Assembly: GCA_945787105.1 (NCBI GenBank)
Contig: CALZGZ010000058.1
Coordinates: forward strand, 1 to 32,738
Origin: an uncultured Gammaproteobacteria bacterium
GTDB lineage: Bacteria > Pseudomonadota > Gammaproteobacteria > Arenicellales > JAANXG01
Direction of reading: 5' to 3'
Length of the DNA: 32,738 bases
The notes beneath the pieces were generated by a model. The model was not told the origin of the DNA, did no database searches, and saw nothing but the letters and a program-made list of their open reading frames with translations. The position numbers were made by a program, and so were the translations under genes. Shown in pieces: positions 8,603-27,570 of this stretch; position 1 is the stretch's first letter, and every line of letters starts with the position of its first letter.

Positions 8603-10072
8603 TTATACAGGCTGCAACTCGGAAAGCATAATTGTGAATCGCCGGCTTGTGTCCAACGCCGAACTGATCTTGATACTCAAAATGTCCGCCAACGCCTTCA
8701 CCAGCGACAAGCCAAGCCCGGCGTGACGCCCGCCGGCGCGGGCCTCGTCTTTGCGCCAGAAACGCTCGAACATCAGCGGCAGATCCTGTTCGGCTAGGTC
8801 AACCGTCGGGTTAGACACGGCAAGCTGCGCGCCGACCGTATTCTCCTCCACCGCCACCACAATCACCGAATGGTCAGGGCTGTAGGACACCGCGTTGGAA
8901 AACAGATTCGTCAAAATGAGCGTCAGCTTGTCCTCATCGCTGCGCACCTTCAGGTCGTCTCGGACCCGATTGTCCAGCTGCACTTGCTTGCCGTTTGCCT
9001 GGGAGGTCAGACGTCGCCAGGTCTTGTCGATCAACTGAGAAAGGCCGATCGGCGCCATCGCCGCGCGCTGTGTGCCGGCCTCCAGCTGACTGAGCATCAT
9101 CAGGTTGGTGACGGTCCTCTCCATGTCATCGGCCAGGTGCACCAGTTCGCCAAAGAAACCCTCGACCATATCCCGGTCGGCCGGCCACTCCTTACCTACT
9201 TCCGCCAGGCTGCGCAGTTCGGCAATCGGTGTGCGCAACTCGTGCGCGACATTGCCTGAAAAACGCTTTTCGCGTTGGAACGCGGCCTCCAGACGTTCGA
9301 GCAGCTCATTGAGCTGTCTCGTAATCGGTGCCAACTCGTCGCTGCCGGGCGTGTCCGGCAGCCGGGTGTTCAGGTTGTCCGCATCCAAGTTGCGGACCTC
9401 GCCGGCGATTTTGTTCAGCGGCTTCAGGCCGCGGTCGACGGACAGACGAACCAGCAGTGCCGTGGCGCCCATCAGCAGTGCAAAAATCACCGCCAGCGTG
9501 GCGCGCACGGTCGCGATCAAATGGTCGAGGTCTTCCGTCCCGCGCGCGACCGCGATGTCCGCTCGGAGGTCGGAGGCCGATGTCCCGGCCTCACCATCAT
9601 CCGGCTGTCTGCCTGGGTCAGCCTGCGCGCCCGCTTGCTTCTCGTCGTCATCCGGACCATCGTGGTACGGGACAAACCGGACTGCGACCAGCCTGCCGAC
9701 ACGTCCATCGGGCAGTGTCAGGTCGGTAAAGTGAGGTGTATCCAGGGGTGGGTTCGACCGCGGCAGGTCCGCCTCGCCCAGGGAACCCGACCGCTCAATA
9801 AGCGTGCCATCCGCCAGCCACAACTGGAAGTATTCCGGACGCTCGTCCGCCGCGAACTCGGGCATGAACCGGTCGACAAAATCAAACTCGACTTCGCCCT
9901 CATCCTGCTCGCTCAGGGTCACCAGGCTCATCGCCTTGGACAGCAGGTTGCGATCGAACTCTGTCTTCAGCTGCTCGCGCAACAGGTAATCGATCGTCAC
10001 GCCGGCAATAATCAACAGCATCGCCATCCCGGCGATGATCAAGAATGCCAATCTGGTTCGAATTGAGCTCAT
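8603..10072 (-). CDS. membrane sensor histidine kinase, PmrB/QseC-like
   Basis: The 489-aa kinase has TM1 at about residues 8-28, a periplasmic sensor at 30-190, TM2 at 191-212, HAMP at 213-265, a HisKA domain with HELRTP (phospho-acceptor H277), and a HATPase with N-box NLFSNAVSYS (N393) and G-box AGLGLSLVKAL. The sensor holds a very acidic, low-complexity insert around residues 137-165 (DGPDDDEKQ and following). A TTG at 10084, immediately after the response-regulator stop, would add four residues; the ATG at 10072 is preferred. In either case translation is probably coupled to the upstream regulator gene. A decayed relative of this gene lies at 27193-27570. Confidence 0.9.
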   Translation of the reverse strand: MSSIRTRLAFLIIAGMAMLLIIAGVTIDYLLREQLKTEFDRNLLSKAMSLVTLSEQDEGEVEFDFVDRFMPEFAADERPEYFQLWLADGTLIERSGSLGEADLPRSNPPLDTPHFTDLTLPDGRVGRLVAVRFVPYHDGPDDDEKQAGAQADPGRQPDDGEAGTSASDLRADIAVARGTEDLDHLIATVRATLAVIFALLMGATALLVRLSVDRGLKPLNKIAGEVRNLDADNLNTRLPDTPGSDELAPITRQLNELLERLEAAFQREKRFSGNVAHELRTPIAELRSLAEVGKEWPADRDMVEGFFGELVHLADDMERTVTNLMMLSQLEAGTQRAAMAPIGLSQLIDKTWRRLTSQANGKQVQLDNRVRDDLKVRSDEDKLTLILTNLFSNAVSYSPDHSVIVVAVEENTVGAQLAVSNPTVDLAEQDLPLMFERFWRKDEARAGGRHAGLGLSLVKALADILSIKISSALDTSRRFTIMLSELQPV

Positions 10073-10084
10073 GAGCGTGCGCAA

Positions 10085-15000: not shown

Positions 15001-16638
15001 ATGGGTCCGAAAACCCTGAAGTTGAAAGTCGGTCTTTACTTGGCGATTGCCCTGACGGTGGCCATGGTGACATTCATCGTCCTGGTGGTAAAGCATCACC
15101 GCGCGCACCTGCTCGATGCGGCAATCAGTCACGTCACGCAGCTTTCCGAAGTGGTCACCAAGAGCACACGTTTCGCCATGCTGCAGAATCAGCCGTCTTA
15201 CGTGCACCGGATCATCGAGGATGTCGGCAGTCAAGACGGAATCGTCAAGATCAGGATAATGAGCAAAGACGGGACGATCATACATTCCAGCTTCCCTGAC
15301 GAATTCGGTCTTCAAGTGGACAAAAATGCGGAGGGATGCTTCCACTGCCACGAGAGCGAGACGCCTCTGGCCCAGATCCCCAGGTACAAGCGGGCGCGGA
15401 TTTTTAAATCTGTGCAGGGGGGCAGATTGCTGGGCAGCATGGAGGTGATCCGCAATGAACCGTCCTGTTACACCGCGAGTTGCCACGTGCACCGCAAGGA
15501 TCAATCGGTGCTTGGCGTTTTGGATATTGTCTATTCCCTCGATGGGATCGACCGCAAGGCATACGTCGACACGCTCACTATCGCCAGTTTTGCCGTCGGA
15601 TTCACCATCATCGCCTCCCTGTTCGTGAGTTTTTTCGTGCATCGTATGGTGTATGTACCGTTACGGGACCTGGAGGCCGGCGCCGACCGGCTGTCATCGG
15701 GAAATCTGCAACAGTCCATCCCGGTGCGCAGCCAGGACGAGTTTGGTCAGCTGGCAGTCTCTTTTAACGCCATGACCGAGGCGCTCAGCAAGTCCCAGAA
15801 GGAATTGCAGGAGTGGGGCCACACCCTGGAACAAAAGGTGCAAGAGAAGACCAAGGAGTTGCAGGCCGCCCAGGCCGAATCCGCGCATCGGGAAAAACTT
15901 GCTTCCGTCGGACTGCTCGCGGCCGGCATCGCGCATGAGCTGAACAACCCCTTGACCGGGGTGCTTACCTTCTCGACCCTGGTCCGCGAGAAGATGGCGG
16001 AGGGAAGCCCGGAGGCGGAAGACCTGGACCTGGTGATCCGCGAAACCAATAGATGCGCCACCATCATTCGAAGACTTCTCGATTTCGCGCGTGAAAAAAC
16101 CCCGGAGAAAAAATTTGCCGATCTCAACAAGATCATCGAGGATACGGAGCAGTTGATAAAACGGCCGGCGTATCTGGATGACATTGAGGTCAACATGGAC
16201 CTCGACCACGACCTGCCGCAGATCTGGCTCGACGAGGATTTAATCAAGCAGGTCATCATGAACATTCTCGTCAACGCGCAACAGGCCATCGAGGGCACCG
16301 GCCGCATTACAATACGCAGCCGTCTGGTGCCGCAGGCGGACAGTCCCGAGGCGGGCCCCGGAACCATGGTGGAGATATCGATCACCGATACCGGATGTGG
16401 AATCTCGGAGCAAGACCGGCAACGGATTTTCGATCCGTTCTTCACCTCGAAGGGGGTGGGGCAAGGAACAGGGCTGGGATTGTCCGTCAGCCATGGTATC
16501 GTCCGGGCGCATGGTGGGACAATCCAGGTGGACAGCAAGGTCGGGGAGGGAGCTACGTTCCGGATCTACCTGCCGGTAGAGGCGCAAGACACCGAAGTAG
16601 CGAGCATTGACTATGAGCGGCAAGATACTGGTAGTTGA
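15001..16638 (+). CDS. membrane histidine kinase with c-type heme motifs in the sensor domain
   Basis: The 545-aa kinase has TM1 at about residues 8-30, a periplasmic sensor at 32-195, TM2 at about 197-217, HAMP at 218-270, a coiled coil, a HisKA domain of NtrB type (HELNNPLTG, H312) and a HATPase (N-box NILVNAQQA, then DTGCGIS and GTGLGLSVSHGI). The sensor contains CFHCH at residues 113-117 (CXXCH) and CYTASCH at 156-162 (CX4CH), both possible covalent heme c sites facing the periplasm. It probably senses redox state or a gaseous ligand through heme and phosphorylates the NtrC-type regulator, whose start lies 26 bases inside this gene. Facing multiheme cytochrome genes fit that role. Confidence 0.9.
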   Translation: MGPKTLKLKVGLYLAIALTVAMVTFIVLVVKHHRAHLLDAAISHVTQLSEVVTKSTRFAMLQNQPSYVHRIIEDVGSQDGIVKIRIMSKDGTIIHSSFPDEFGLQVDKNAEGCFHCHESETPLAQIPRYKRARIFKSVQGGRLLGSMEVIRNEPSCYTASCHVHRKDQSVLGVLDIVYSLDGIDRKAYVDTLTIASFAVGFTIIASLFVSFFVHRMVYVPLRDLEAGADRLSSGNLQQSIPVRSQDEFGQLAVSFNAMTEALSKSQKELQEWGHTLEQKVQEKTKELQAAQAESAHREKLASVGLLAAGIAHELNNPLTGVLTFSTLVREKMAEGSPEAEDLDLVIRETNRCATIIRRLLDFAREKTPEKKFADLNKIIEDTEQLIKRPAYLDDIEVNMDLDHDLPQIWLDEDLIKQVIMNILVNAQQAIEGTGRITIRSRLVPQADSPEAGPGTMVEISITDTGCGISEQDRQRIFDPFFTSKGVGQGTGLGLSVSHGIVRAHGGTIQVDSKVGEGATFRIYLPVEAQDTEVASIDYERQDTGS

Positions 16639-18028
16639 CGACGAGGAGATCGTCGTAAAAAGTTGCCTGCGCATTCTCGGCGAGACCGATTACGCGGTCG
16701 ACGCGGTGCGAAGCGGCATGGAGGCCCTGCAAAAATTGGATGAGACGCACTACGACGTGCTCGTCTTGGACATCATGATGCCGAAGATGGACGGCCTGGA
16801 AGTGCTACAGAGGGTTAAAGAATCCCACCCCGACATCGATGTCATCATGGTCACCGGATTGTCGGAAATCGAGACCGCGGTTCATTCCATGAAGCTGGGG
16901 GCCTTTGACTACCTGCCTAAACCTTTCGATCCGGAAGCACTCAAGCTCTTGGTGGGGCGGGCTTTCGAGAAGCGGCGTCTACAGCAGGAAAATCTCAACC
17001 TCAAAAATGAGGTCAGTTCCAAGTACCGTTTCGAAAACATTATTGGCTCCAGCACCCAGATGCAGAGCGTATATCGTCTTATTGCAAAGTGCGCACCCAC
17101 CAACAGCACGGTACTGCTCAGGGGGGAGAGCGGGACCGGCAAAGAGTTGGTAGCCCGCGCCATCCACTACAACAGCCTACGCAAAGACAGAGCCTTTGTC
17201 CCGGTCGACTGTGGTTCACTGAGTGAACAGCTACTTGAGAGCGAGTTGTTCGGCCACGTCAAGGGCTCGTTTACCGGTGCGGTGGCAAACAAGCGAGGGT
17301 TATTCGAAATCGCAGAGGGCGGAACGCTGTTTCTGGATGAAATAGGAAATATTTCCTTGTCCACCCAGGCAAAGCTTCTGCGTATTATCCAGGAACGGGA
17401 ATTCAAGGCGGTGGGGGACACGCGGACGCAGGCTGCCAATATCAGGCTGATCAGCGCCACCAATAAAGACCTCAAGGCGATGGTCGCCGACGGAACATTC
17501 CGCGAAGATCTTTACTATCGCCTTAATATCTTTCCCATCGAGATACCACCGTTGCGGGAACGCCGCGAAGACATCCCCGCCCTCGCATTTCATTTTCTCA
17601 AGCTGTTCGGCGAGGAACTGGGGAAAGAAATGACTGAGTTCTCCGTGGAGGCGATGAACATGCTGGTGAACTACAATTGGCCGGGGAATGTAAGGGAACT
17701 GGAAAATACGATACACCGTGCCGTAATCCTTGCCACCGAAAAGGTCATCCGCCAGGGTCACCTGGTGACGATTCTCGACATGGGCGCGGCGCTCGATTCC
17801 AACGTGCCGAAGACAAGCGATGAGCTCAAGCGCTTCAAGAAGCTGGCTCGTGAGAAGTCGGTGAAAAATATCGAGAAGCTGTTCATCCTCGAAGCGTTGA
17901 AAAGAAACGACTGGAACGTCACCAAGAGTGCCGAGGACACCGGTATGCAGCGCACTAACTTCCAGGCGCTGATGAAAAAGTACGATATCCGGATACGGGG
18001 AGCGGAGCAGGAATCCGCCGGTTCCTAA
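16613..18028 (+). CDS. NtrC-family sigma-54-dependent response regulator
   Basis: The 471-aa regulator starts MSGKILVVDDEEIV; the ATG at 16613 is chosen over a TTG six bases earlier. It has a receiver (acidic pair DD, phospho-acceptor D53 in VLDIMMPKMDG, KPFDPEAL), an AAA+ domain with Walker A GESGTGKE near residue 171, a sigma-54 contact loop GSFTGA (near 218, one change from GAFTGA), Walker B GGTLFLDEIG and R-finger region FREDLYYRLN. A C-terminal Fis-type helix-turn-helix follows (ALKRNDWNVTKSAEDTGM). It activates sigma-54 RNA polymerase when phosphorylated, most likely by the overlapping kinase. A consensus -24/-12 promoter at 21406-21421 in the same cluster is the obvious target. Confidence 0.95.
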   Translation: MSGKILVVDDEEIVVKSCLRILGETDYAVDAVRSGMEALQKLDETHYDVLVLDIMMPKMDGLEVLQRVKESHPDIDVIMVTGLSEIETAVHSMKLGAFDYLPKPFDPEALKLLVGRAFEKRRLQQENLNLKNEVSSKYRFENIIGSSTQMQSVYRLIAKCAPTNSTVLLRGESGTGKELVARAIHYNSLRKDRAFVPVDCGSLSEQLLESELFGHVKGSFTGAVANKRGLFEIAEGGTLFLDEIGNISLSTQAKLLRIIQEREFKAVGDTRTQAANIRLISATNKDLKAMVADGTFREDLYYRLNIFPIEIPPLRERREDIPALAFHFLKLFGEELGKEMTEFSVEAMNMLVNYNWPGNVRELENTIHRAVILATEKVIRQGHLVTILDMGAALDSNVPKTSDELKRFKKLAREKSVKNIEKLFILEALKRNDWNVTKSAEDTGMQRTNFQALMKKYDIRIRGAEQESAGS

Positions 18029-18101: not shown

Positions 18102-18827
18102 TTAGTGAATTTGCAGCGGAGACGGTGGCCTGGTGATATGCATCCGTATCTGTTGTTTGTCTTTGTCCTCGTCGTGCCGCTTGTCCTTGTTTGCATCCAT
18201 CGACTTTTCGTCCTCTATTTCTTCATATCCAGTAAACATCGCCTTGATGTGCGCCGTAGCCGTGTGACCAAGGGTCGCAAGATAGACATGAATGAATAGA
18301 AAAAACGCGAAGAAGATGAGTATCAAAACGTGCACGGTATCCACGACCCGCACCCCACCGAGCAACGTCACGATTCCCGAAAAGCGTTCCACGTCCCAAA
18401 GCAGGATCCCGGTGATGATCTGCAAGGGAATGACGAGGAGCATAATGATCTGGTAAGACACCCGCTGCAATGGATTGAACTTGTTGTAGGGAGTCATGTG
18501 GTGCGGATTCGGCGCACCTCTGAAAATACCCCAGCCGTAATAACGGGCCTGACGGATGCTGTCACGGTAGTATTTTTTCGGATTCAATTCAGGGTGATAG
18601 ATCCTGATCTTGTCCGAAAACAAATAAAACGACAGCCAGATAAAGAAATTACCGATAAGCAAAAACCCGATCCAGTTGTGCACGGTGACCGTGAGCTGCA
18701 AGGACATGACGTTGACCAACCCGACATATCTGATCTGCAGGCCGGTGAGGATTAGCGCGATAACGCTACTCGCATTGATCCAATGCCAGATTCTGATTGG
18801 AAGTGGATGAATGTATATTTTTTTCAT
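18102..18827 (-). CDS. FdnI/HydC-type diheme cytochrome b membrane subunit
   Basis: The 241-aa integral membrane protein has four main hydrophobic segments. Its four histidines at FdnI-like positions, H15 (IRIWHWINA), H50 (VHNWIGF), H166 (DTVHVLIL) and H180 (FIHVYLA), would ligate two b hemes across the membrane. The ATG at 18827 follows GAGG by 10 bases; the longer frame to 18899 overlaps the upstream gene and is rejected. It lies 13 bases after the nine-heme cytochrome, so it is cotranscribed. It probably oxidises quinol (or reduces quinone) and exchanges electrons with that cytochrome. The highly charged tail (about 200-241) is unusual. No catalytic dehydrogenase subunit is encoded nearby. 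Confidence 0.9.
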   Translation of the reverse strand: MKKIYIHPLPIRIWHWINASSVIALILTGLQIRYVGLVNVMSLQLTVTVHNWIGFLLIGNFFIWLSFYLFSDKIRIYHPELNPKKYYRDSIRQARYYGWGIFRGAPNPHHMTPYNKFNPLQRVSYQIIMLLVIPLQIITGILLWDVERFSGIVTLLGGVRVVDTVHVLILIFFAFFLFIHVYLATLGHTATAHIKAMFTGYEEIEDEKSMDANKDKRHDEDKDKQQIRMHITRPPSPLQIH

Positions 18828-18840
18828 CTTGCGTCCCTCT

Positions 18841-20178
18841 TTATTTGCCTTTCCTGAGTAATTTGCGCATCGCCAGGTGCACGATCGGCACCGAGGCACC
18901 GCCGGCCACCGCGAGAAGCAGGAGAATATCCAGCAGTTTTACCCTTGTGCCTCCCAAAGCGTAAAACCCACCCACAGAATTCATCGAAAGCGCGGAGCTC
19001 AACACCTCTTTTTCAGCGTCGTAACTCACCCGTTTGCCGTCGGCACGGATTAGAGAGACGGTGACGTTCTGGAACGGTTCGGCGCCATCGCTATGACAGC
19101 TCTCGCAGTTCCTGAGCGCTTTTTCTTTCCAAGCCAATTGATGCGCCTGTTCCCCGGTGACGACTTCCATGCGGCCCCGTAGGGTCACTTCGGCCGCGGT
19201 CCCGTCGCGATTAATTCCCCGCACCAGATTCCACAATTCTTTTGCATCCAGACCGTCTTTGCTCGACTCCCTCGGACCGGGCAGATTACCCAACCGCGGC
19301 GAGACTTCGTTTTCGGAAATCGGCCGCTGGGCCACGCTGTCAAATAGCATGAGATCAACCCGTCGTCGCGCCGCCGGCGCATGGCAAGCGGCGCAGGATA
19401 CTGCTTGAAGATGTAGCCCGGCGTTTGGCAACCATTTCTTGTGGGCACCCTTTGCACCCTCATGGCAACCGAGACATGCCTCTTTCAACCGGTCCTCGAC
19501 CGATGCCGCATTGACGTCATGCGCGCGATGGCAGTCGGAGCAAACGGGCGCCTCGATATGCCCCAGTTTGCTGCGGGCCTGCCCATGCATACTCTTGAGA
19601 TAAACATCGAAGATGTTTGCATGACAATTCTTGCATGGACCACCGGTTAATGTTTCGTACGCCGCTTTGGGTTTCACAGTATGAGATCCATGGCAGTCCG
19701 TGCACACCGGCGCCGCAAAGTTGCCAGATTCGACCAGTGAGGCATGAATGCTTCCCTCGTACTGATGGGATTTGTCCTCATGGCACTCATAGCAGATCTT
19801 GGCCAGTGCGATGGATCGCTCACGCTTGTTGGCGTAAGTCTTTTTGTTCTTGCTCAGCGAGTGCGTGTTCAGATTGATGTCCCGATGGCAGCTAGCGCAT
19901 CCGATCCAGTTATGCACCGACTTTGCAAACACCTCGCCCGGCACATGCAGGGAGAGCTTTTCGCCGTCTCCCAGAGTCGTTGAGAGCCGCTCGAAGGAAT
20001 GGCATTTGAGGCACTTCCCATCCTCTGCCGATAGCGAATCGTCTGGAATACTTGCCAGCGCAGTGGACGTGAGCCATGAAAAAGAACACAGAACAAGAAA
20101 CATTACCCCTGCCAGCTTACGAAGATCGGTGGGTAATCTGCCCATTGTCATCTTGTCTTTTCTGTTGGAAATTGTCAT
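18841..20178 (-). CDS. nine-heme membrane-anchored cytochrome c
   Basis: The 445-aa protein has a hydrophobic signal (about residues 22-42, cut near ALAS) and nine CXXCH motifs: CLKCH (56), CASCH (94), CYECH (129), CTDCH (159), CKNCH (182), CSDCH (213), CLGCH (235), CAACH (262) and CESCH (358). A C-terminal TM segment (about 414-436) is followed by a basic tail, so it is held on the periplasmic face. The gap of almost 100 residues between hemes 8 and 9 suggests an extra non-heme subdomain. With the cytochrome b gene directly downstream it forms a quinol:multiheme-cytochrome pair. Nine c-type motifs plus an FdnI-type b domain is also the composition of the fused Geobacter CbcL. Inner-membrane electron transfer is the inferred role. 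Confidence 0.93.
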   Translation of the reverse strand: MTISNRKDKMTMGRLPTDLRKLAGVMFLVLCSFSWLTSTALASIPDDSLSAEDGKCLKCHSFERLSTTLGDGEKLSLHVPGEVFAKSVHNWIGCASCHRDINLNTHSLSKNKKTYANKRERSIALAKICYECHEDKSHQYEGSIHASLVESGNFAAPVCTDCHGSHTVKPKAAYETLTGGPCKNCHANIFDVYLKSMHGQARSKLGHIEAPVCSDCHRAHDVNAASVEDRLKEACLGCHEGAKGAHKKWLPNAGLHLQAVSCAACHAPAARRRVDLMLFDSVAQRPISENEVSPRLGNLPGPRESSKDGLDAKELWNLVRGINRDGTAAEVTLRGRMEVVTGEQAHQLAWKEKALRNCESCHSDGAEPFQNVTVSLIRADGKRVSYDAEKEVLSSALSMNSVGGFYALGGTRVKLLDILLLLAVAGGASVPIVHLAMRKLLRKGK

Positions 20179-21940: not shown

Positions 21941-23302
21941 CTAATCCATCGCGGTCGCCAGTTTCGCGTGGCTGACCTCGTCCGCCGGTCGTTCATTGCG
22001 CGCGGACGGGTTGTACGGCATTAACGCCATTAACACTGAGCCCACCAGGCAGGCAGTGCCGGCGATGATGAAGGGCGTCATCCACATACTCGGATCAGTA
22101 GCGCCGGCGGCCGCGTCCTTGAATACACCGGCGAGCAGCGGCCCGACAATACCAGCGACACCATAGGCAGTGAACAACCAGCCGTAATTGGTACCCACGT
22201 TCTTGTTGCCGAATAGGTCCGCCGTGGCCGCTGGGAATAGCGCAAAGTTGCCGCCAAAGTTGAAGCCAATCAAGGCTGCCGCAAGGATGAAGCCATGCAC
22301 CGCTCCGACGTGAATGAATCCATGATAAATAAGGAGCATGACCAGCCCCTGACAGCCGGTCATCAGCACAATCGCGGTTTTGCGGCCGAGGTGGTCCGAA
22401 AGCCCACCCCATAGGATGCGCCCGAGTCCATTGAAGACGGCATACCAGGCCATGGCGGTGCCGGTGACAGCGCCAATCCCAACAACGCCGCGGCCACTGA
22501 GGATGTCGATACCGAACAATTTGATGCAGTAAATCACCATCAAACCGGCCAACGCGGAGCACACGAATACCGTCCATAGCAGGTAAAACTGGGGACATCG
22601 CAACATCTGTCGCGGTGCATAGTCGAGTCCGCCGTTAGCGGCGGCGGTGGCCTGTTCAGCTGGCGTCCATCCCGCGGGCACGTAGTCCTCGGGTGGGTTA
22701 ACCATGACCAGGCTGCCGAGCACGACCAACGCGAGGAACGCGATACCGTATACGATGAACACACTCTGCACGCCGGGGAGACCGAGGATGCTGACGGTAT
22801 CCAGGAGTCCTCCGAACCAGGAGCCGGCCAGTTTCACCCAGATTACCGCCCCGAACCCAAATCCGGCGACCGCGAGACCGGTGATCAGCCCCTTCTTGTC
22901 AGGGAACCATCTGACGCCGACAGCGATAGGTACGACGTAGGCCAAGCCGACACCGGCCCCTCCCATAACGCCGATGAACACAAACTGGGCCCAGAAGGTG
23001 TTGCCGAAGATACCGCCCAGGATATATCCAAGGCCCAGCGTGACGCCTCCCGCCAAGGCGACGGTAGTGGGGCCTAGTTTGGCCTGCAACTTTCCGGCCA
23101 CTATCATCACCACCGCAAACGTCGCTAGGCCTGCTGAGAAGATCCAAGCCGTTTGGCTGGCGGAAAACCCGTACACCCCATTCGGATCGGTAAGCGCCCC
23201 GGTGAACACCGACCAGGCGTAGATCGCACCCAGTGCGAGCTGAATCAGAACTGCGCCCACGACTACCCACCAGCGACTGAATGTCCGTCTCGTTGCCGTC
23301 AT
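21941..23302 (-). CDS. MFS transporter, OFA (oxalate/formate antiporter) family
   Basis: The 453-aa protein has the 12-TM major facilitator layout. The start RWWVVVGAVLIQLALGAIYAWSVF and the GAGVGLAYVVPIAVGVRWFPDKKGLITGLAVAGFG region are hallmarks of the OFA subfamily (OxlT, lactate/formate/oxalate-type carriers). Cytoplasmic-loop motifs GKLQAKLGP and GGLSDHLGRK are intact. It moves a small carboxylate across the inner membrane; which one cannot be read from sequence. The gcl operon in the same window makes a C2 acid such as glycolate, glyoxylate or oxalate attractive, but the genes are about 16 kb apart. The ATG follows GGGGG by 5 bases. Confidence 0.9.
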   Translation of the reverse strand: MTATRRTFSRWWVVVGAVLIQLALGAIYAWSVFTGALTDPNGVYGFSASQTAWIFSAGLATFAVVMIVAGKLQAKLGPTTVALAGGVTLGLGYILGGIFGNTFWAQFVFIGVMGGAGVGLAYVVPIAVGVRWFPDKKGLITGLAVAGFGFGAVIWVKLAGSWFGGLLDTVSILGLPGVQSVFIVYGIAFLALVVLGSLVMVNPPEDYVPAGWTPAEQATAAANGGLDYAPRQMLRCPQFYLLWTVFVCSALAGLMVIYCIKLFGIDILSGRGVVGIGAVTGTAMAWYAVFNGLGRILWGGLSDHLGRKTAIVLMTGCQGLVMLLIYHGFIHVGAVHGFILAAALIGFNFGGNFALFPAATADLFGNKNVGTNYGWLFTAYGVAGIVGPLLAGVFKDAAAGATDPSMWMTPFIIAGTACLVGSVLMALMPYNPSARNERPADEVSHAKLATAMD

Positions 23303-23910
23303 CTATACCCCCAATTTGTATCGGCTCATTAATGTAACTTGGCGATGGGGTCCGCGGGACGCCCGTCGCGCTCATGGTCCACGCCTGATGCTTCAGGCAT
23401 GGATGGCCAAGAACGAGTTTGTGTTACCCCCCGGTAGCTATCGACGCGCGTGCAAATAGCCTTGCTTACAAGATAAGCATAGACCAAAAACTTTCAGAAC
23501 GCCGCTGGTATCGGCCCGTGGACGGGCCGTCTCATCAACGCGAACTGCTCGGTCTGCTGTGTTCCATCATCACCCGGCCGTGAATCGTCCGAACACGGTG
23601 AGACATTGATTTTCTATGTAGGCCTATGTCGGATGCACCACCCTTCCTGGATTGCCGGTCAGCGTCTCGCCTTGTCCATTGCTTGTCGTCGTGATCAAAC
23701 CAACTCTCGAGCATGATGCGTGGGAGGGAGCCACATTGACCGTGGTGCCACTGTCGACGATATACACTCACTCGGCGGTTGTGTTGAAGACCGTTATCGC
23801 GGCGGCGGACAAGGTGCGTCAGACAATCCCGTCACACTCCCGCGCTGATCGTAATCAAACAGAGCGCCGCGTAACGACTTTACAATGCTGCTATGAACGC
23901 ATAGCACTGG
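23303..23910. other. gene-poor region between transporter and Gly/Cys-tailed protein
   Basis: About 600 bases. Open frames on both strands here (for example plus-strand 23652-24101) lack family-like sequence and are judged spurious. A perfect hairpin lies at 23512-23529; otherwise nothing was recognised. Confidence 0.4.
23512..23529. other. GC-rich hairpin
   Basis: CGGCCCG (23512-23518), a 4-base loop and CGGGCCG (23523-23529) form a perfect 7-bp stem. It is not followed by a T-run on either strand, so its role as a terminator is doubtful. Confidence 0.4.
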
Positions 23911-24432
23911 CTAGAATTTGCAGCCGCAGCCACCTCCACCAGCAACACTGCCGACAATGCAAAGCGCCCTCTCAGCAGACGTACATTCGCGCCGGTCTTC
24001 CCTGTCGGAGAGATAAACCAATACCCCTAGGGCACCGCCGGCGGCCAAAATACGTCCAAAATTGTTCCCGGCCGAATCCTGCGTGGGTTCATCTTTCGTA
24101 GTAGGCGCAACATCGGAAGGTCGGTTTGTCGGATCTTCTAGGGCGAGGGGTATCGGCCGAGGCCGCAGTGTACGATACAACGTCCACACGTTGTGATCCG
24201 TCGAATACAGCGGAATTCTGATCAAGCTATTTTCGCTGAAGTCGTCCGCATCCAAAACAAGCCGAGACTGCGAACCGACGTAGAAGCTGCTGGCGGGATG
24301 TTTGCCGCCGAATCCGACCTCGACCTGGAACACGTAAATGCTGTTATCAGCGCGTGCAGTAACCCCGAGGAACGAAACTAGAACCGCTACGATGGCCCGG
24401 GCTGTGACTTGTTCGTATCGTGAGATTGTCAT
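23911..24432 (-). CDS. small secreted protein with Gly/Cys-rich C-terminus, unknown
   Basis: The 173-aa protein has a signal peptide (hydrophobic AIVAVLVSFLGVTARA, cleavage near ARADN). The mature part is beta-rich (IYVFQVEVGFGGK, SRLVLDADDF). A short hydrophobic stretch, ILAAGGALGVLVYL, lies near residues 128-141. It ends CTSAERALCIVGSVAGGGG-C-G-C-KF, with four cysteines in the last 26 residues. An AGGAGG site is placed well before the ATG at 24432. It is divergent from the PDZ-AAA+ gene, with a 234-base shared upstream region. I do not recognise a family; the terminal Cys-Gly-Cys cluster could bind metal or form disulfides. Confidence 0.65.
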   Translation of the reverse strand: MTISRYEQVTARAIVAVLVSFLGVTARADNSIYVFQVEVGFGGKHPASSFYVGSQSRLVLDADDFSENSLIRIPLYSTDHNVWTLYRTLRPRPIPLALEDPTNRPSDVAPTTKDEPTQDSAGNNFGRILAAGGALGVLVYLSDREDRRECTSAERALCIVGSVAGGGGCGCKF

Positions 24433-24600
24433 GATCTTTATCCTCCTGCATGATAAATACTTACTCCGGCAGTGAGTTTTTACCGCCGCTCACCCAGTCT
24501 GTTTCAAGTTGCGTGCCAACCTAGAGGGCGTGGTGACCGCCAGCAAAAGATTGCTACTTATCAATACGCTGAAAGAACCCGGTGGTTGATCGTGTGAATT

Positions 24601-24609: not shown

Positions 24610-24666
24610 GAGATGGGTGTGAAACGTGTGGGGATACGGTGTGGGGCACACAGAGGGGCTTTCTCC

Positions 24667-27192
24667 ATGGCAAGATTCGGCAAAACGGGCACGCTCATAC
24701 TAGGCCCAATCTCCGCCGTATTCTTTTTGTTGGTGTTTATCCCGATAACCCACAACACCTACCTCATCGGGTTCCACGGTAAATGGCAGGACGAACGATT
24801 CGTCATCACGTTGATCGAGCCCGACAGTCCGGCGCAGCTGGCTGGGTTTCGCGTCGGTGATGTCGTGTCGCGGCAAGGGACCACGCCAACCTCCCAATGG
24901 CACCAATGGTACCGTTCTGATTTAAGCTCCTATCTAAAAGCCCGATACCAACTTCGGGACAAAAACATTTCCTACGACATCGATCGGGATACTGGGTCGG
25001 TAATCCTCAATCTCACACCACGACCACTGAGCGGCAGGGAAACATGGACTTTTTATGGGTTCCGCACGGTGTTGATGCTGTTCCTGATGGGGCTGGCGGT
25101 CTATATCGTCATTTCCAAATCCAGGGAACGGTACGCGAATATGATTTCTATGTGTTTCTGTTTTGCGGTGATGTGGCTCGCCAGCGATGAACCCTACTGG
25201 GAGTTGTTCTACTCTCCGTTGGTTCGGGGAGCCATATTCCCACTGATCAATATCGTCGACCTGCTCGAAATCCTGTTCTTGCAATTGGTCATGAGCATCC
25301 TTGTGCATATCAGCTTGGTATTTCCCGAGCGTCGCCAGATCATACGGCGATATCCGTGGATACCGATGTCTCTCTATATCCTGTCAATCACCGTACCTTT
25401 CGTAGCGATACTCTTTCCGGAAGGTGGCCTACTCAACAAGATTTCAGCGACTTACCCGATCCGGCTGTCGCTCAATACCGGGTTGCTGGTGTTGGCTACG
25501 TGGTTAATGCTCGTCGGTTATCGACAGTGCCGGTCTCCGGGCCAGCGTGAACGGACGCGCTGGATCATTGTCTCGATGGCGATTGTTGCCTTCGCACATA
25601 TTGTGCTCTGGAATCTCCCAATCCTGTTTGTTGGCGAACCACTGATACACCGCTACGACTGGCTTTTAGTGCCGGTATCTTTGATCCCCCTCTCTATGAC
25701 CCTATCCATTACCAACCATGAGTTGTTTGGGGTGCGGGGTATTATCCGCGGCCGCATCAAGCTGCTCGGAACGCGATTGGCAAGAGAGAAGTCGGCGGTG
25801 ATGCGGCGCGACCAGCGGATTCGTGAGATGACCCAGGAACTCGATCAGTTGACCGTGGAGCTCGAGCAGTACGCGCTAACGGAACGGGCGGGCGATGAAC
25901 CGGCCGGCACAACCTCCAAGTTGAGCAAGCTGGAGAAGCGGTTTCCACAACTTCGGCAGATTCGAGAGGAGACGTTGATCGGTGCAAGTCCGCTCTGGGA
26001 GGATGTATTCGAACAAGCCGCCGTGGCGGCGCGCGGCAGCGCACCGGTGATGATCGTCGGCGAGTCGGGAACCGGCAAAACGCATATCGCACAGGCGGTC
26101 CACCTGCTGAGCGATCGCAGCGAGCGGATCTGCAAAGAGATCAGCTGCGCCCAGTTCGAGCATGCCGATCCCGCCTTCGCGCTCGGCAAACTGTTCGGAG
26201 TGGGGACCGGGCACGGCCTGCCCAACGTGCCCAAAGAAGGTCACAGTGGTCTGCTGGAAGAAAGCGATGGCGGCACGCTGTTTCTCGACGACTTCGACCG
26301 ATTGCCCCTCAACGTGCAGGACCTGCTGCTATACCCCCTCGAGGGAAAACCGTTCGAGCCCGGGATTGGTCGCGGGGAACCGCGCACCGTATCGGTCAAA
26401 TTTATCTTTGCCACCAATCGCGATCCCGCCCAGCTGGTATCAGAAGGAAAATTTCAAGCGGATGTTTTGGCGCGAATCGGGACACGAGTCGATGTACCGC
26501 CGCTGCGCGAACGGCCCGAGGACATCCCGTTGCTGGTGGAGCATTTCACCAGGCAAATCGGCCAACAGCTCAAGCATGAAATTACCGTGGTCTCGCCTAA
26601 GACCATTCATTTATTCAGTAATTATCGTTATGCAGGCGGGAACGCCCGCGAACTCATGTCCGAAATTCACAAGGCGATCGGCAGGGCGATGCTGGAAGAT
26701 GATAATGTCTTGCGCGCCGGATATTTGTCCGAAACACTGCAAGCCGCGACGACTGCACAGCGTGAATCGGCGGGCCCGATTTCAACCGAACCTGCCGCAC
26801 CGAGCAGCGCCGCGCATGAGATTGCCGCGACCACACAGGCGACAGAGTTGGCCGCCCTGAGAAGACACCGGTTTCAAATCAAACCCGCCGAAGAAGAGCT
26901 GGGGCTCAGCCATAAATCGCGCACATTATCCAACCACTTGAGAGGACTGTGCATTAAGACTTTGAGCGAAAACGACTGGGATCTTGGGCGCGCCGCCCGG
27001 TCGCTTTCTGCATCGGATGATTCCAAGATTGTGACTCGAATCGAAGGAAAGATGCGGCGGTATCTGAAAAACATAGAAGATAACGTGGGTAATCAGTCCG
27101 AGAGCAAGTTGTACAACAATCTACCCGCGGCATATCACGAGCCCTTAGCAAGAGCGATACGCTGGGTTCGAACCGCGTGTGACGCACCTTGA
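24667..27192 (+). CDS. membrane PDZ-like/AAA+ protein related to sigma-54 activators, GAFTGA absent
   Basis: The 841-aa product has a first TM at about residues 8-25, then a PDZ-like periplasmic domain (about 30-115; SPAQLAGFRVGDVVSRQG). Seven or so further TM segments follow to about 385, then a coiled coil (about 395-445) and an AAA+ domain with Walker A GESGTGKT (465) and Walker B GGTLFLDD (535). Where NtrC-type proteins have GAFTGA, this one reads LFGVGTGHGLPN, so contact with sigma-54 is unlikely. The C-terminus (SENDWDLGRAARSLS) resembles a degraded Fis helix. A GAGG site before 24667 and a -10 at 24604 favour that ATG over 24613. It may be a membrane-tethered sensor ATPase rather than a transcription activator. 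Confidence 0.85.
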   Translation: MARFGKTGTLILGPISAVFFLLVFIPITHNTYLIGFHGKWQDERFVITLIEPDSPAQLAGFRVGDVVSRQGTTPTSQWHQWYRSDLSSYLKARYQLRDKNISYDIDRDTGSVILNLTPRPLSGRETWTFYGFRTVLMLFLMGLAVYIVISKSRERYANMISMCFCFAVMWLASDEPYWELFYSPLVRGAIFPLINIVDLLEILFLQLVMSILVHISLVFPERRQIIRRYPWIPMSLYILSITVPFVAILFPEGGLLNKISATYPIRLSLNTGLLVLATWLMLVGYRQCRSPGQRERTRWIIVSMAIVAFAHIVLWNLPILFVGEPLIHRYDWLLVPVSLIPLSMTLSITNHELFGVRGIIRGRIKLLGTRLAREKSAVMRRDQRIREMTQELDQLTVELEQYALTERAGDEPAGTTSKLSKLEKRFPQLRQIREETLIGASPLWEDVFEQAAVAARGSAPVMIVGESGTGKTHIAQAVHLLSDRSERICKEISCAQFEHADPAFALGKLFGVGTGHGLPNVPKEGHSGLLEESDGGTLFLDDFDRLPLNVQDLLLYPLEGKPFEPGIGRGEPRTVSVKFIFATNRDPAQLVSEGKFQADVLARIGTRVDVPPLRERPEDIPLLVEHFTRQIGQQLKHEITVVSPKTIHLFSNYRYAGGNARELMSEIHKAIGRAMLEDDNVLRAGYLSETLQAATTAQRESAGPISTEPAAPSSAAHEIAATTQATELAALRRHRFQIKPAEEELGLSHKSRTLSNHLRGLCIKTLSENDWDLGRAARSLSASDDSKIVTRIEGKMRRYLKNIEDNVGNQSESKLYNNLPAAYHEPLARAIRWVRTACDAP

Positions 27193-27570
27193 AATCAGAA
27201 TCTTGTCTCTAAAGTCCGCACACTCATTACGCTAACGACCTAACGCGAGGCAGAGGTGACGCTGGATTTTGCGCACGAGTTCATGCCGGAGTTTGAGGCG
27301 CCGCAACGCCCCGAGTATTGCGAACTCTGGTTAGCAGATAGCACGCTCAATGAACGATTGCGTTGTTTGGGCGAGTCGGATCTGCCGCCGGAAGGCGCGC
27401 CTATAGGTCAGCCCAATTGCAGAGATCTGGCTCTGCCTGACGGGCGAGCCGGACTTCTGGTGTTGGCATTGATATGCGAGCAATTTTGGCGCAAAGATCA
27501 GGCTCATTCGCGAACTCAGCATGTCGGACTTGGCCTCGTCCTAGTCATCCCTTCGACCAAAGAATCGGCG
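27193..27570 (+). pseudogene. relic of a PmrB/QseC-like sensor histidine kinase, internally deleted
   Basis: Reading the frame through 27199-27540 gives NLVSK, then a stop (TAA at 27241), then EVTLDFAHEFMPEF, RPEYCELWLAD, LPDGRAG and CEQFWRKDQA followed by HVGLGL. These match the kinase at 8603-10072 in order: NLLSK, EVEFDFVDRFMPEF, RPEYFQLWLAD, LPDGRVG, then FERFWRKDEA and HAGLGL. The sensor portion (residues 41 to about 130) is joined directly to the G-box region (about 436-458). About 300 residues with TM2, HAMP, the phospho-acceptor His and the N-box are missing. The relic starts directly after the stop of the AAA+ gene. A GTG-initiated open frame (27256-27699) could still be translated but would have no kinase function. 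Confidence 0.8.

Follow-up and report, generated by a model that had tools for sequence, protein, structure and literature searches.

A GAFTGA-less, membrane-embedded relative of sigma-54 activators is associated with GTGTGR arrays and -24/-12 promoters of exported-protein genes

What does a sigma-54-activator-type ATPase do when it is joined to a membrane sensor and lacks the GAFTGA loop? The question is raised by one open reading frame in the window, the whole stretch of 32,738 nucleotides that was analysed. The GAFTGA loop counts as the contact that defines a sigma-54 activator, and homologues that lack it have been written off as sigma-70 regulators; in the parts of PMC3162934 and PMC7057263 consulted, sigma-54 contact is said to require it. 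Our best reading, which we consider reasonably probable, is that the frame encodes a membrane-embedded one-component regulator, derived from bacterial enhancer-binding proteins (bEBPs), that would control exported-protein genes from sigma-54-type promoters. Features are collected in Table 1; loci (L), genomes (G) and contigs (C) are cited by our own numbers.

Table 1. Features of the regulator locus in the window, in order of position.
Feature	Position	Strand	Basis
Divergent 173-aa exported protein, hydrophobic segment, Cys tail (...GGGGCGCKF)	23911..24432	-	ORF, homologues, profile
-24/-12 (sigma-54-type) promoter TTGGCACGCAACTTGA of the secreted gene, 71 nt before its start codon	24504..24519	-	Consensus scoring, conservation
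GTGTGR repeat 1 (GTGTGA), putative upstream activating array	24592..24597	+	Sequence, cross-locus conservation
GTGTGR repeat 2 (GTGTGA), 25 bp after repeat 1	24617..24622	+	Sequence, cross-locus conservation
GTGTGR repeat 3 (GTGTGG), 9 bp after repeat 2	24626..24631	+	Sequence, cross-locus conservation
GTGTGR repeat 4 (GTGTGG), 13 bp after repeat 3	24639..24644	+	Sequence, cross-locus conservation
Membrane-embedded bEBP-like regulator, 841 aa, whole ORF	24667..27192	+	ORF, Pfam, family alignment, AlphaFold2
TM1 and periplasmic PDZ (residues 3-116)	24673..25014	+	AlphaFold2, Pfam PDZ_6, A3 profile
Seven-helix membrane bundle (residues 123-353)	25033..25725	+	AlphaFold2, hydropathy
Coiled-coil linker (residues 355-409)	25729..25893	+	Single helix in AlphaFold2 model
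AAA+ sigma-54-activator-type ATPase domain (residues 437-605)	25975..26481	+	Pfam PF00158; VIA-align Z 26.7 LuxO, 26.3 NtrC1
Walker A GESGTGK (residues 465-471)	26059..26079	+	Motif intact
L1 loop G-VGT-GHGLPN-VPKEG replacing GAFTGA	26197..26241	+	9-member alignment; contrast with 87 bEBPs
Walker B GTLFLDD, D for catalytic E	26272..26292	+	Comparison with 87 bEBPs
AAA+ lid (residues 614-701) with sensor-II arginine R661	26506..26769	+	Pfam PF25601; alignment
C-terminal helical domain (residues 725-841), possible helix-turn-helix 773-808	26839..27189	+	9-way conservation, AlphaFold2, weak Fis-type HTH match

The regulator frame is open throughout, and its longest ATG version begins at 24613. 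Pfam recognised Sigma54_activat (PF00158, E 6e-32) and AAA_lid_14 (PF25601, E 8e-14) in the ATPase part. The PDZ_6 match of the window protein was weak (residues 46-67) and below the Pfam cut-off; PDZ_6 appeared at E <= 5 in 8/9 family members, with a best E of 6e-7. For the TM1-PDZ part, the A3 profile also matches RseP/DegP-type PDZ ORFs, whose identity was judged by eye. AlphaFold2, run on the full length with nine sequences (mean pLDDT 64; AAA+ part poor, C-terminal helical domain confident), placed TM1 at residues 3-29 and the PDZ domain at 31-116, followed by seven more long helices and the coiled coil. Hydrophobic stretches in a Kyte-Doolittle scan agreed with the model in outline, with some helices unresolved, and the predicted topology puts the ATPase on the cytoplasmic side. 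No kinase domain was found among the Pfam matches of family members, and no receiver domain in the regulator, for which NCBIfam TIGR02915 reached 116.7 bits against a cut-off of 502.6. Pfam and AlphaFold2 thus confirmed the layout put forward in the original prediction, a PDZ domain and multiple membrane segments joined to a sigma-54-activator-type AAA+ domain. Its comparison of the N-terminus with sensors of the ComP kind also stands: the AlphaFold2 model and PDZ_6 matches give the TM1-PDZ-multi-TM order that ComP-type sensors have in the portion of PMC9620489 consulted. By that same portion, the regulator differs from ComP in its output, a bEBP-type ATPase and not a histidine kinase, and in its helix count, 8 predicted where the ComP model has 10. 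In a search with the full-length model the membrane bundle matched class C GPCRs (Z about 12); no relationship is claimed, because this value falls within the caveat for helical bundles.

Residues 405-841 were remodelled with 79 aligned sequences, giving a mean pLDDT of 90.8. The AAA+ model superposed on the solved bEBP ATPases LuxO (Z 26.7, rmsd 2.0, 252 aligned) and NtrC1 (Z 26.3), and the best non-bEBP AAA+ protein among the structure matches listed had Z 16.5; these values reflect the AAA+ part, the C-terminal domain being hardly covered. The predicted exchange of GAFTGA for GHGLPN was borne out and is shared by the family, since GAFTGA is absent from all nine full-length members. Its position reads G-H-G-L-x-N in every one of them, with G-x before and V after, within a strongly conserved stretch (G511, G513, G515, H516, G517, L518, N520, V521 and G525 invariant in 9/9). 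The F, T, G and A of GAFTGA, replaced here, are conserved at 94, 94, 95 and 98% in 87 ordinary bEBPs. Both Walker motifs had been described as intact. This was right for Walker A and wrong for Walker B, whose catalytic Glu, present in 100% of the 87 bEBPs, is Asp in 9/9 family members. The first arginine-finger position (597) is R in 99% of those bEBPs and Q in five of the nine members, and the second arginine finger R603 and sensor-II R661 are kept in all nine. PspF N64 is the partner of the 'glutamate switch' according to the part of PMC7057263 consulted; the stretch around its equivalent reads QFEH in 9/9 members and is rebuilt relative to bEBPs. By reading of the alignment, E498 occupies the N64 position and the stretch before the L1 loop is three residues longer than in bEBPs. 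Because the defining features fail (GAFTGA loop, Walker B Glu), we class the regulator, judging from its sequence, as bEBP-derived and not as a canonical bEBP.

Could the altered loop simply mark a decayed copy? The nine full-length members, 86 to 43% identical to the window regulator across the family, share the domain order, the replaced loop, the Walker B E-to-D change and the C-terminal domain (9/9), and a decayed-copy reading was rejected because the loop replacement is common to all of them. No full-length homologue of the same architecture that retains GAFTGA was found. Among 13 genomes of the same taxonomic family, the N-terminal part matched in 7, and six carry full-length proteins besides that of the window. 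Ten of 109 same-order genomes matched, nine of them with the full-length protein (window included); the tenth match (G023) and a second place in G002 were weak and partial. A class sample of 369 genomes gave 2 matches, the window's own genome and G432, the latter cut by contig ends. No plasmid record covers 80% of the regulator query. A contig scan for patterns containing Walker A listed at least 80 loci, of which only L031, on the same contig as L028, belongs to the family; the rest were used as ordinary bEBP controls.

The C-terminus had been taken for a degraded Fis-type domain. Instead, a domain of about 115 residues is conserved in 9/9 members, all-helical and modelled with high confidence (helices 753-768, 773-781 and 786-808). 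Its profile matched the HTH of 68 bEBPs weakly (hhalign E 0.0014, probability 17.8%, 28 columns). Pfam gave no HTH match in member 1 of the family, and the A2 profile found only chance alpha-repeat matches among PDB sequences.

The DNA around the regulator gene was then considered. A GTGTGR array lies just upstream of the regulator start codon; going from it towards the secreted gene, the -24/-12 promoter follows, on that gene's strand. Arrays with at least three GTGTGR repeats occur at the regulator start in 7/10 loci (window, L017, L018, L020, L021, L022 and L027); L019 keeps two exact repeats there, and L028 and L030 have no array at that place, L030 (G432, from another order) having none anywhere in its 3.3-kb contig. 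Compared with L021, the window is identical at 22/24 repeat positions, 11/12 promoter positions and 74/198 other intergenic positions; with L027 the counts are 17/24, 11/12 and 51/198. The array and promoter therefore stay conserved while the remaining intergenic DNA diverges. Promoters were scored to a maximum of 23.5 with a general -24/-12 consensus and preset, not fitted, weights. Among 896 control stretches of 350 bp, true sites included, the best score reached 21 in 1.45% and 20 in 3.6%. No -24/-12 site for the regulator gene itself was found downstream of the array, where the best score was 16.0/23.5.

The same arrangement recurs away from this locus. The array-only pattern GTGTGRN{1,5}GTGTGRN{3,16}GTGTGR, run over the 109 genomes, matched 16 of them. 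At all 11 array sites in regulator-bearing genomes a -24/-12 site reads away from the array, with scores of 19.5-23.5 of 23.5; the eleventh is the promoter at the regulator gene of L018, whose score of 20.0 comes from a separate scoring run, the neighbouring array being shown in the main one. In other genomes one of 10 tested array sites (in G009) has a -24/-12 site, five overlapping matches in a single G013 tandem repeat being left out of the tested set. Three of the 11 sites lie on contigs other than that of the regulator, before a lipoprotein gene (G000:C208), a second P0002-family protein gene (G002:C19) and another lipoprotein gene (G048:C605). Near the regulator, arrays precede a GDSL lipase in L017, L018 and L019 (PF00657, E 5e-21), a P0002 homologue in L027 and a CDP-alcohol phosphatidyltransferase in L028 (PF01066, E 1e-17). 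In 15/15 listed sites the repeats begin 65-125 bp upstream of -24, at set distances, with the exception of a single additional CCACAC next to the L161 promoter.

A combined pattern for array and promoter, CACACN{1,5}YCACACN{73,99}TGGCACR, matched 7/9 regulator-bearing and 3/100 other genomes (Fisher p 1.4e-7, a value that overstates the case because the pattern was drawn from the sites of these genomes and the genomes are related); a reversed-pattern control gave 3 matches in all. The regulator-bearing genomes missed were G003, whose array is one repeat short, and G011, where the contig begins next to the gene. Matches in G013 (two) and G066 (one) fall inside ORFs and lack the -12 TTG. The match in G009 is intergenic, before a secreted endonuclease/exonuclease/phosphatase-like gene (L163, G009:C144:16905-17020). 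Since array and promoter are present there and the regulator gene is absent from G009, it counts as a real exception, which gene loss, a gap in the assembly or a different binding protein could explain. At 3 mismatches, array sites did no better than the reversed-pattern control and were dropped; a 1-mismatch site, G000:C1:4516, is probably chance, its flanking genes both lying on the minus strand with no array-promoter layout.

Two side observations concern the genes behind these sites. L249 (G002:C138) and L173/L246 (G000:C208), in two related genomes, share an array and promoter, TTGGCACGGTTTGTGGA, before different lipoprotein genes, the regulatory DNA having been kept and the gene changed. 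The secreted GDSL lipase under this type of array and promoter is found at L017:11672-12682, L018:1913-2899, L019:11358-12317 and L020:5434-6426, in L020 48 bp behind a P0002-family gene, and is missing from the window locus (window 23302-23911).

Does the divergent secreted protein belong with the regulator, as the original prediction proposed in calling it a candidate ligand or partner? The conserved array and -24/-12 promoter between the two genes support a functional link. The co-occurrence proposed for the pair was found in part. The secreted ORF is present in 5/9 assessable loci, with solid homology in three, and strong matches of its family profile came from 5/109 genomes, all regulator-bearing; L019 and L028 have no such divergent ORF. 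BLAST-level homologues lie opposite the regulator in L017 and L020. In L021 and L027 a small ORF in the same place has a signal peptide and Cys tail, at 23 and 20% identity too diverged for statistics. L018 holds a broken remnant of the secreted gene, the L022 contig ends at this place, and L030 has a different divergent gene. Distant relatives in G004, which has no regulator, and in a second copy in G005 are accompanied by neither array nor -24/-12 site, so the secreted-protein family is not tied to the regulator system. These relatives (L199, G004:C17; L204, G005:C4) are 146 aa long and belong to a wider small exported family without a Pfam model. The secreted protein looks first of all like a regulated gene, and it may also act as a ligand or in feedback. 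The C-termini of the three close secreted proteins are CGCKF, CGCKL and CDCKL (window 23911-24432; L017:10468-10989; L020:4865-5386). Many PDZ domains bind a hydrophobic C-terminal residue. Because the tail ends in such a residue, it could be a PDZ ligand.

If GAFTGA is replaced, is the sigma factor changed as well? rpoN is present once in 9/9 regulator-bearing genomes and in 78/100 others. A second or unusual RpoN was rejected, with one PF04552 match in each of 87/109 genomes and two in none, and RpoN region I looked ordinary in the sequences extracted (13/18 loci tried). As rpoN is single in all nine and region I ordinary where read, the sequences do not point to a special sigma factor that would match the regulator. 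The -12 element among the 15 listed promoter sites reads TTGA in place of TTGC in 9 and TTGT in one, and lacks TTG in one. A link between altered loop and altered -12 element was also rejected, because L027 and L179 keep TTGC despite the same altered loop.

How, then, might the regulator work? The periplasmic PDZ domain and eight-helix membrane part would sense an envelope or extracellular signal, to be passed through the coiled coil to the AAA+ ring, while the C-terminal domain would hold the regulator on the GTGTGR repeats as its upstream activating site. bEBP upstream sites lie about as far upstream of -24/-12 promoters as these repeats do. The regulon would include the divergent Cys-tailed protein, the GDSL lipase, lipoproteins and, in one genome, the CDP-alcohol phosphatidyltransferase. 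With an array just before its start codon the regulator gene is probably autoregulated; it is usual for a divergent bEBP gene to overlap the upstream site, as with XylR/Ps. We infer that the array is bound by the regulator itself, that sigma-54 serves the promoters, that control is by activation and that the ATPase is active. Promoter opening without GAFTGA could depend on a new contact loop or a GAFTGA-bearing partner, or the regulator could act by antagonism. Counted against the best reading are the absent GAFTGA, the Walker B Asp, the rebuilt PspF N64 region, the -12 variants, the weak HTH match, G009, and L028 and L030. We offer only tentatively, with more doubt than belief, the fuller proposal of a natural sigma-54 activator that is controlled by its PDZ domain, uses G-x-GHGL-x-NV as contact loop in place of GAFTGA with a rebuilt glutamate switch, and receives feedback from the Cys-tailed protein as PDZ ligand.

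Other explanations assign promoter opening elsewhere. The regulator might bind the array in a mixed ring with an ordinary GAFTGA bEBP, or antagonise such a bEBP bound there, the partner opening the promoter. The loop and Walker B changes in all members suggest weak or altered ATPase coupling, the AAA+ part matches 13 other places in the same genome, G009 has a site without the regulator, and HrpR/HrpS form a hetero-hexamer according to the part of PMC7057263 consulted. However, no second bEBP lies beside the regulator in other loci, among the matches listed, and the regulator gene and array recur together across genera, so that we hold this explanation to be unlikely. It is decidedly improbable that the regulator gene is merely a regulon member, controlled with the secreted genes by another bEBP that binds GTGTGR. 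The G009 site and the lack of a -24/-12 site for the regulator gene downstream of its array would fit such a role, whereas a bEBP-type ATPase with a conserved domain in the place of the DNA-binding domain, and arrays that track regulator presence across the genomes, speak against it.

More distant from the best reading are two explanations that dispense with sigma-54. The named GAFTGA-less bEBP homologues (TyrR, DhaR, HupR, VpsR, and the NtrC of Caulobacter and R. capsulatus) act at sigma-70 promoters, as far as the consulted parts of PMC3162934 and PMC10274813 go, and the regulator shares with them a bEBP-type ATPase without a working GAFTGA. That it belongs with TyrR, VpsR or Caulobacter NtrC as a sigma-70-type regulator, with -24/-12 sites there by coincidence, is nevertheless very improbable in view of such sites, conserved above background, at all 11 array sites in regulator-bearing genomes. 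Its loop, unlike theirs, is replaced by a conserved motif and not deleted. The original prediction raised the possibility of an ATPase moved from transcription to another job at the membrane, such as remodelling a partner; it is taken here as an ATPase that remodels a membrane or periplasmic partner and has no role in transcription. The replaced GAFTGA, altered glutamate switch and membrane location are compatible with this, but the arrays and promoters conserved here and far from the locus point to transcription, the C-terminal domain is conserved, and the ATPase is predicted to lie on the cytoplasmic side; we give the idea almost no credence.

Under the best reading, a membrane-embedded one-component regulator, likenesses to known systems can be set out. 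With bEBPs (NtrC, PspF, ZraR, LuxO; PF00158) the regulator shares the AAA+ fold and lid, Walker A, second arginine finger and sensor-II Arg, the place of the C-terminal domain and, at sequence level, the layout of upstream array and -24/-12 promoter. It differs from them by the missing GAFTGA, the Walker B D for E, the longer pre-L1 stretch, the membrane PDZ sensor and a non-standard C-terminal domain. The PEP-CTERM/PrsK-PrsR regulon likewise combines exported-protein genes, a -24/-12 promoter and a common upstream motif; in the part of PMC1569441 consulted, PrsR is a two-component response regulator and the motif is TTTACA, not GTGTGR. In searches of open-access papers, neither a bEBP with a PDZ/multi-TM part nor a sigma-54 activator lacking GAFTGA was listed. 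The regulator suggests that one protein could link the periplasm to sigma-54 promoters with no relay through a kinase, and a conserved GAFTGA-less family tied by layout to -24/-12 promoters offers a test of another opening loop against mixed rings.

The neighbourhood holds further genes of interest. The stretch directly downstream of the regulator, 27193-27546, is a decayed copy of the histidine kinase encoded at 8603-10084 (-): residues 44-133 of that kinase are fused in frame to its residues 435-462, and the copy carries an internal deletion and a stop. At 15001-18028 a sensor kinase, whose periplasmic part has a CFHCH heme-binding-type motif (residue 113), adjoins an ordinary bEBP response regulator with GSFTGA; the pair lies near a multi-CXXCH cytochrome and a b-type cytochrome ORF at 18102-20178.
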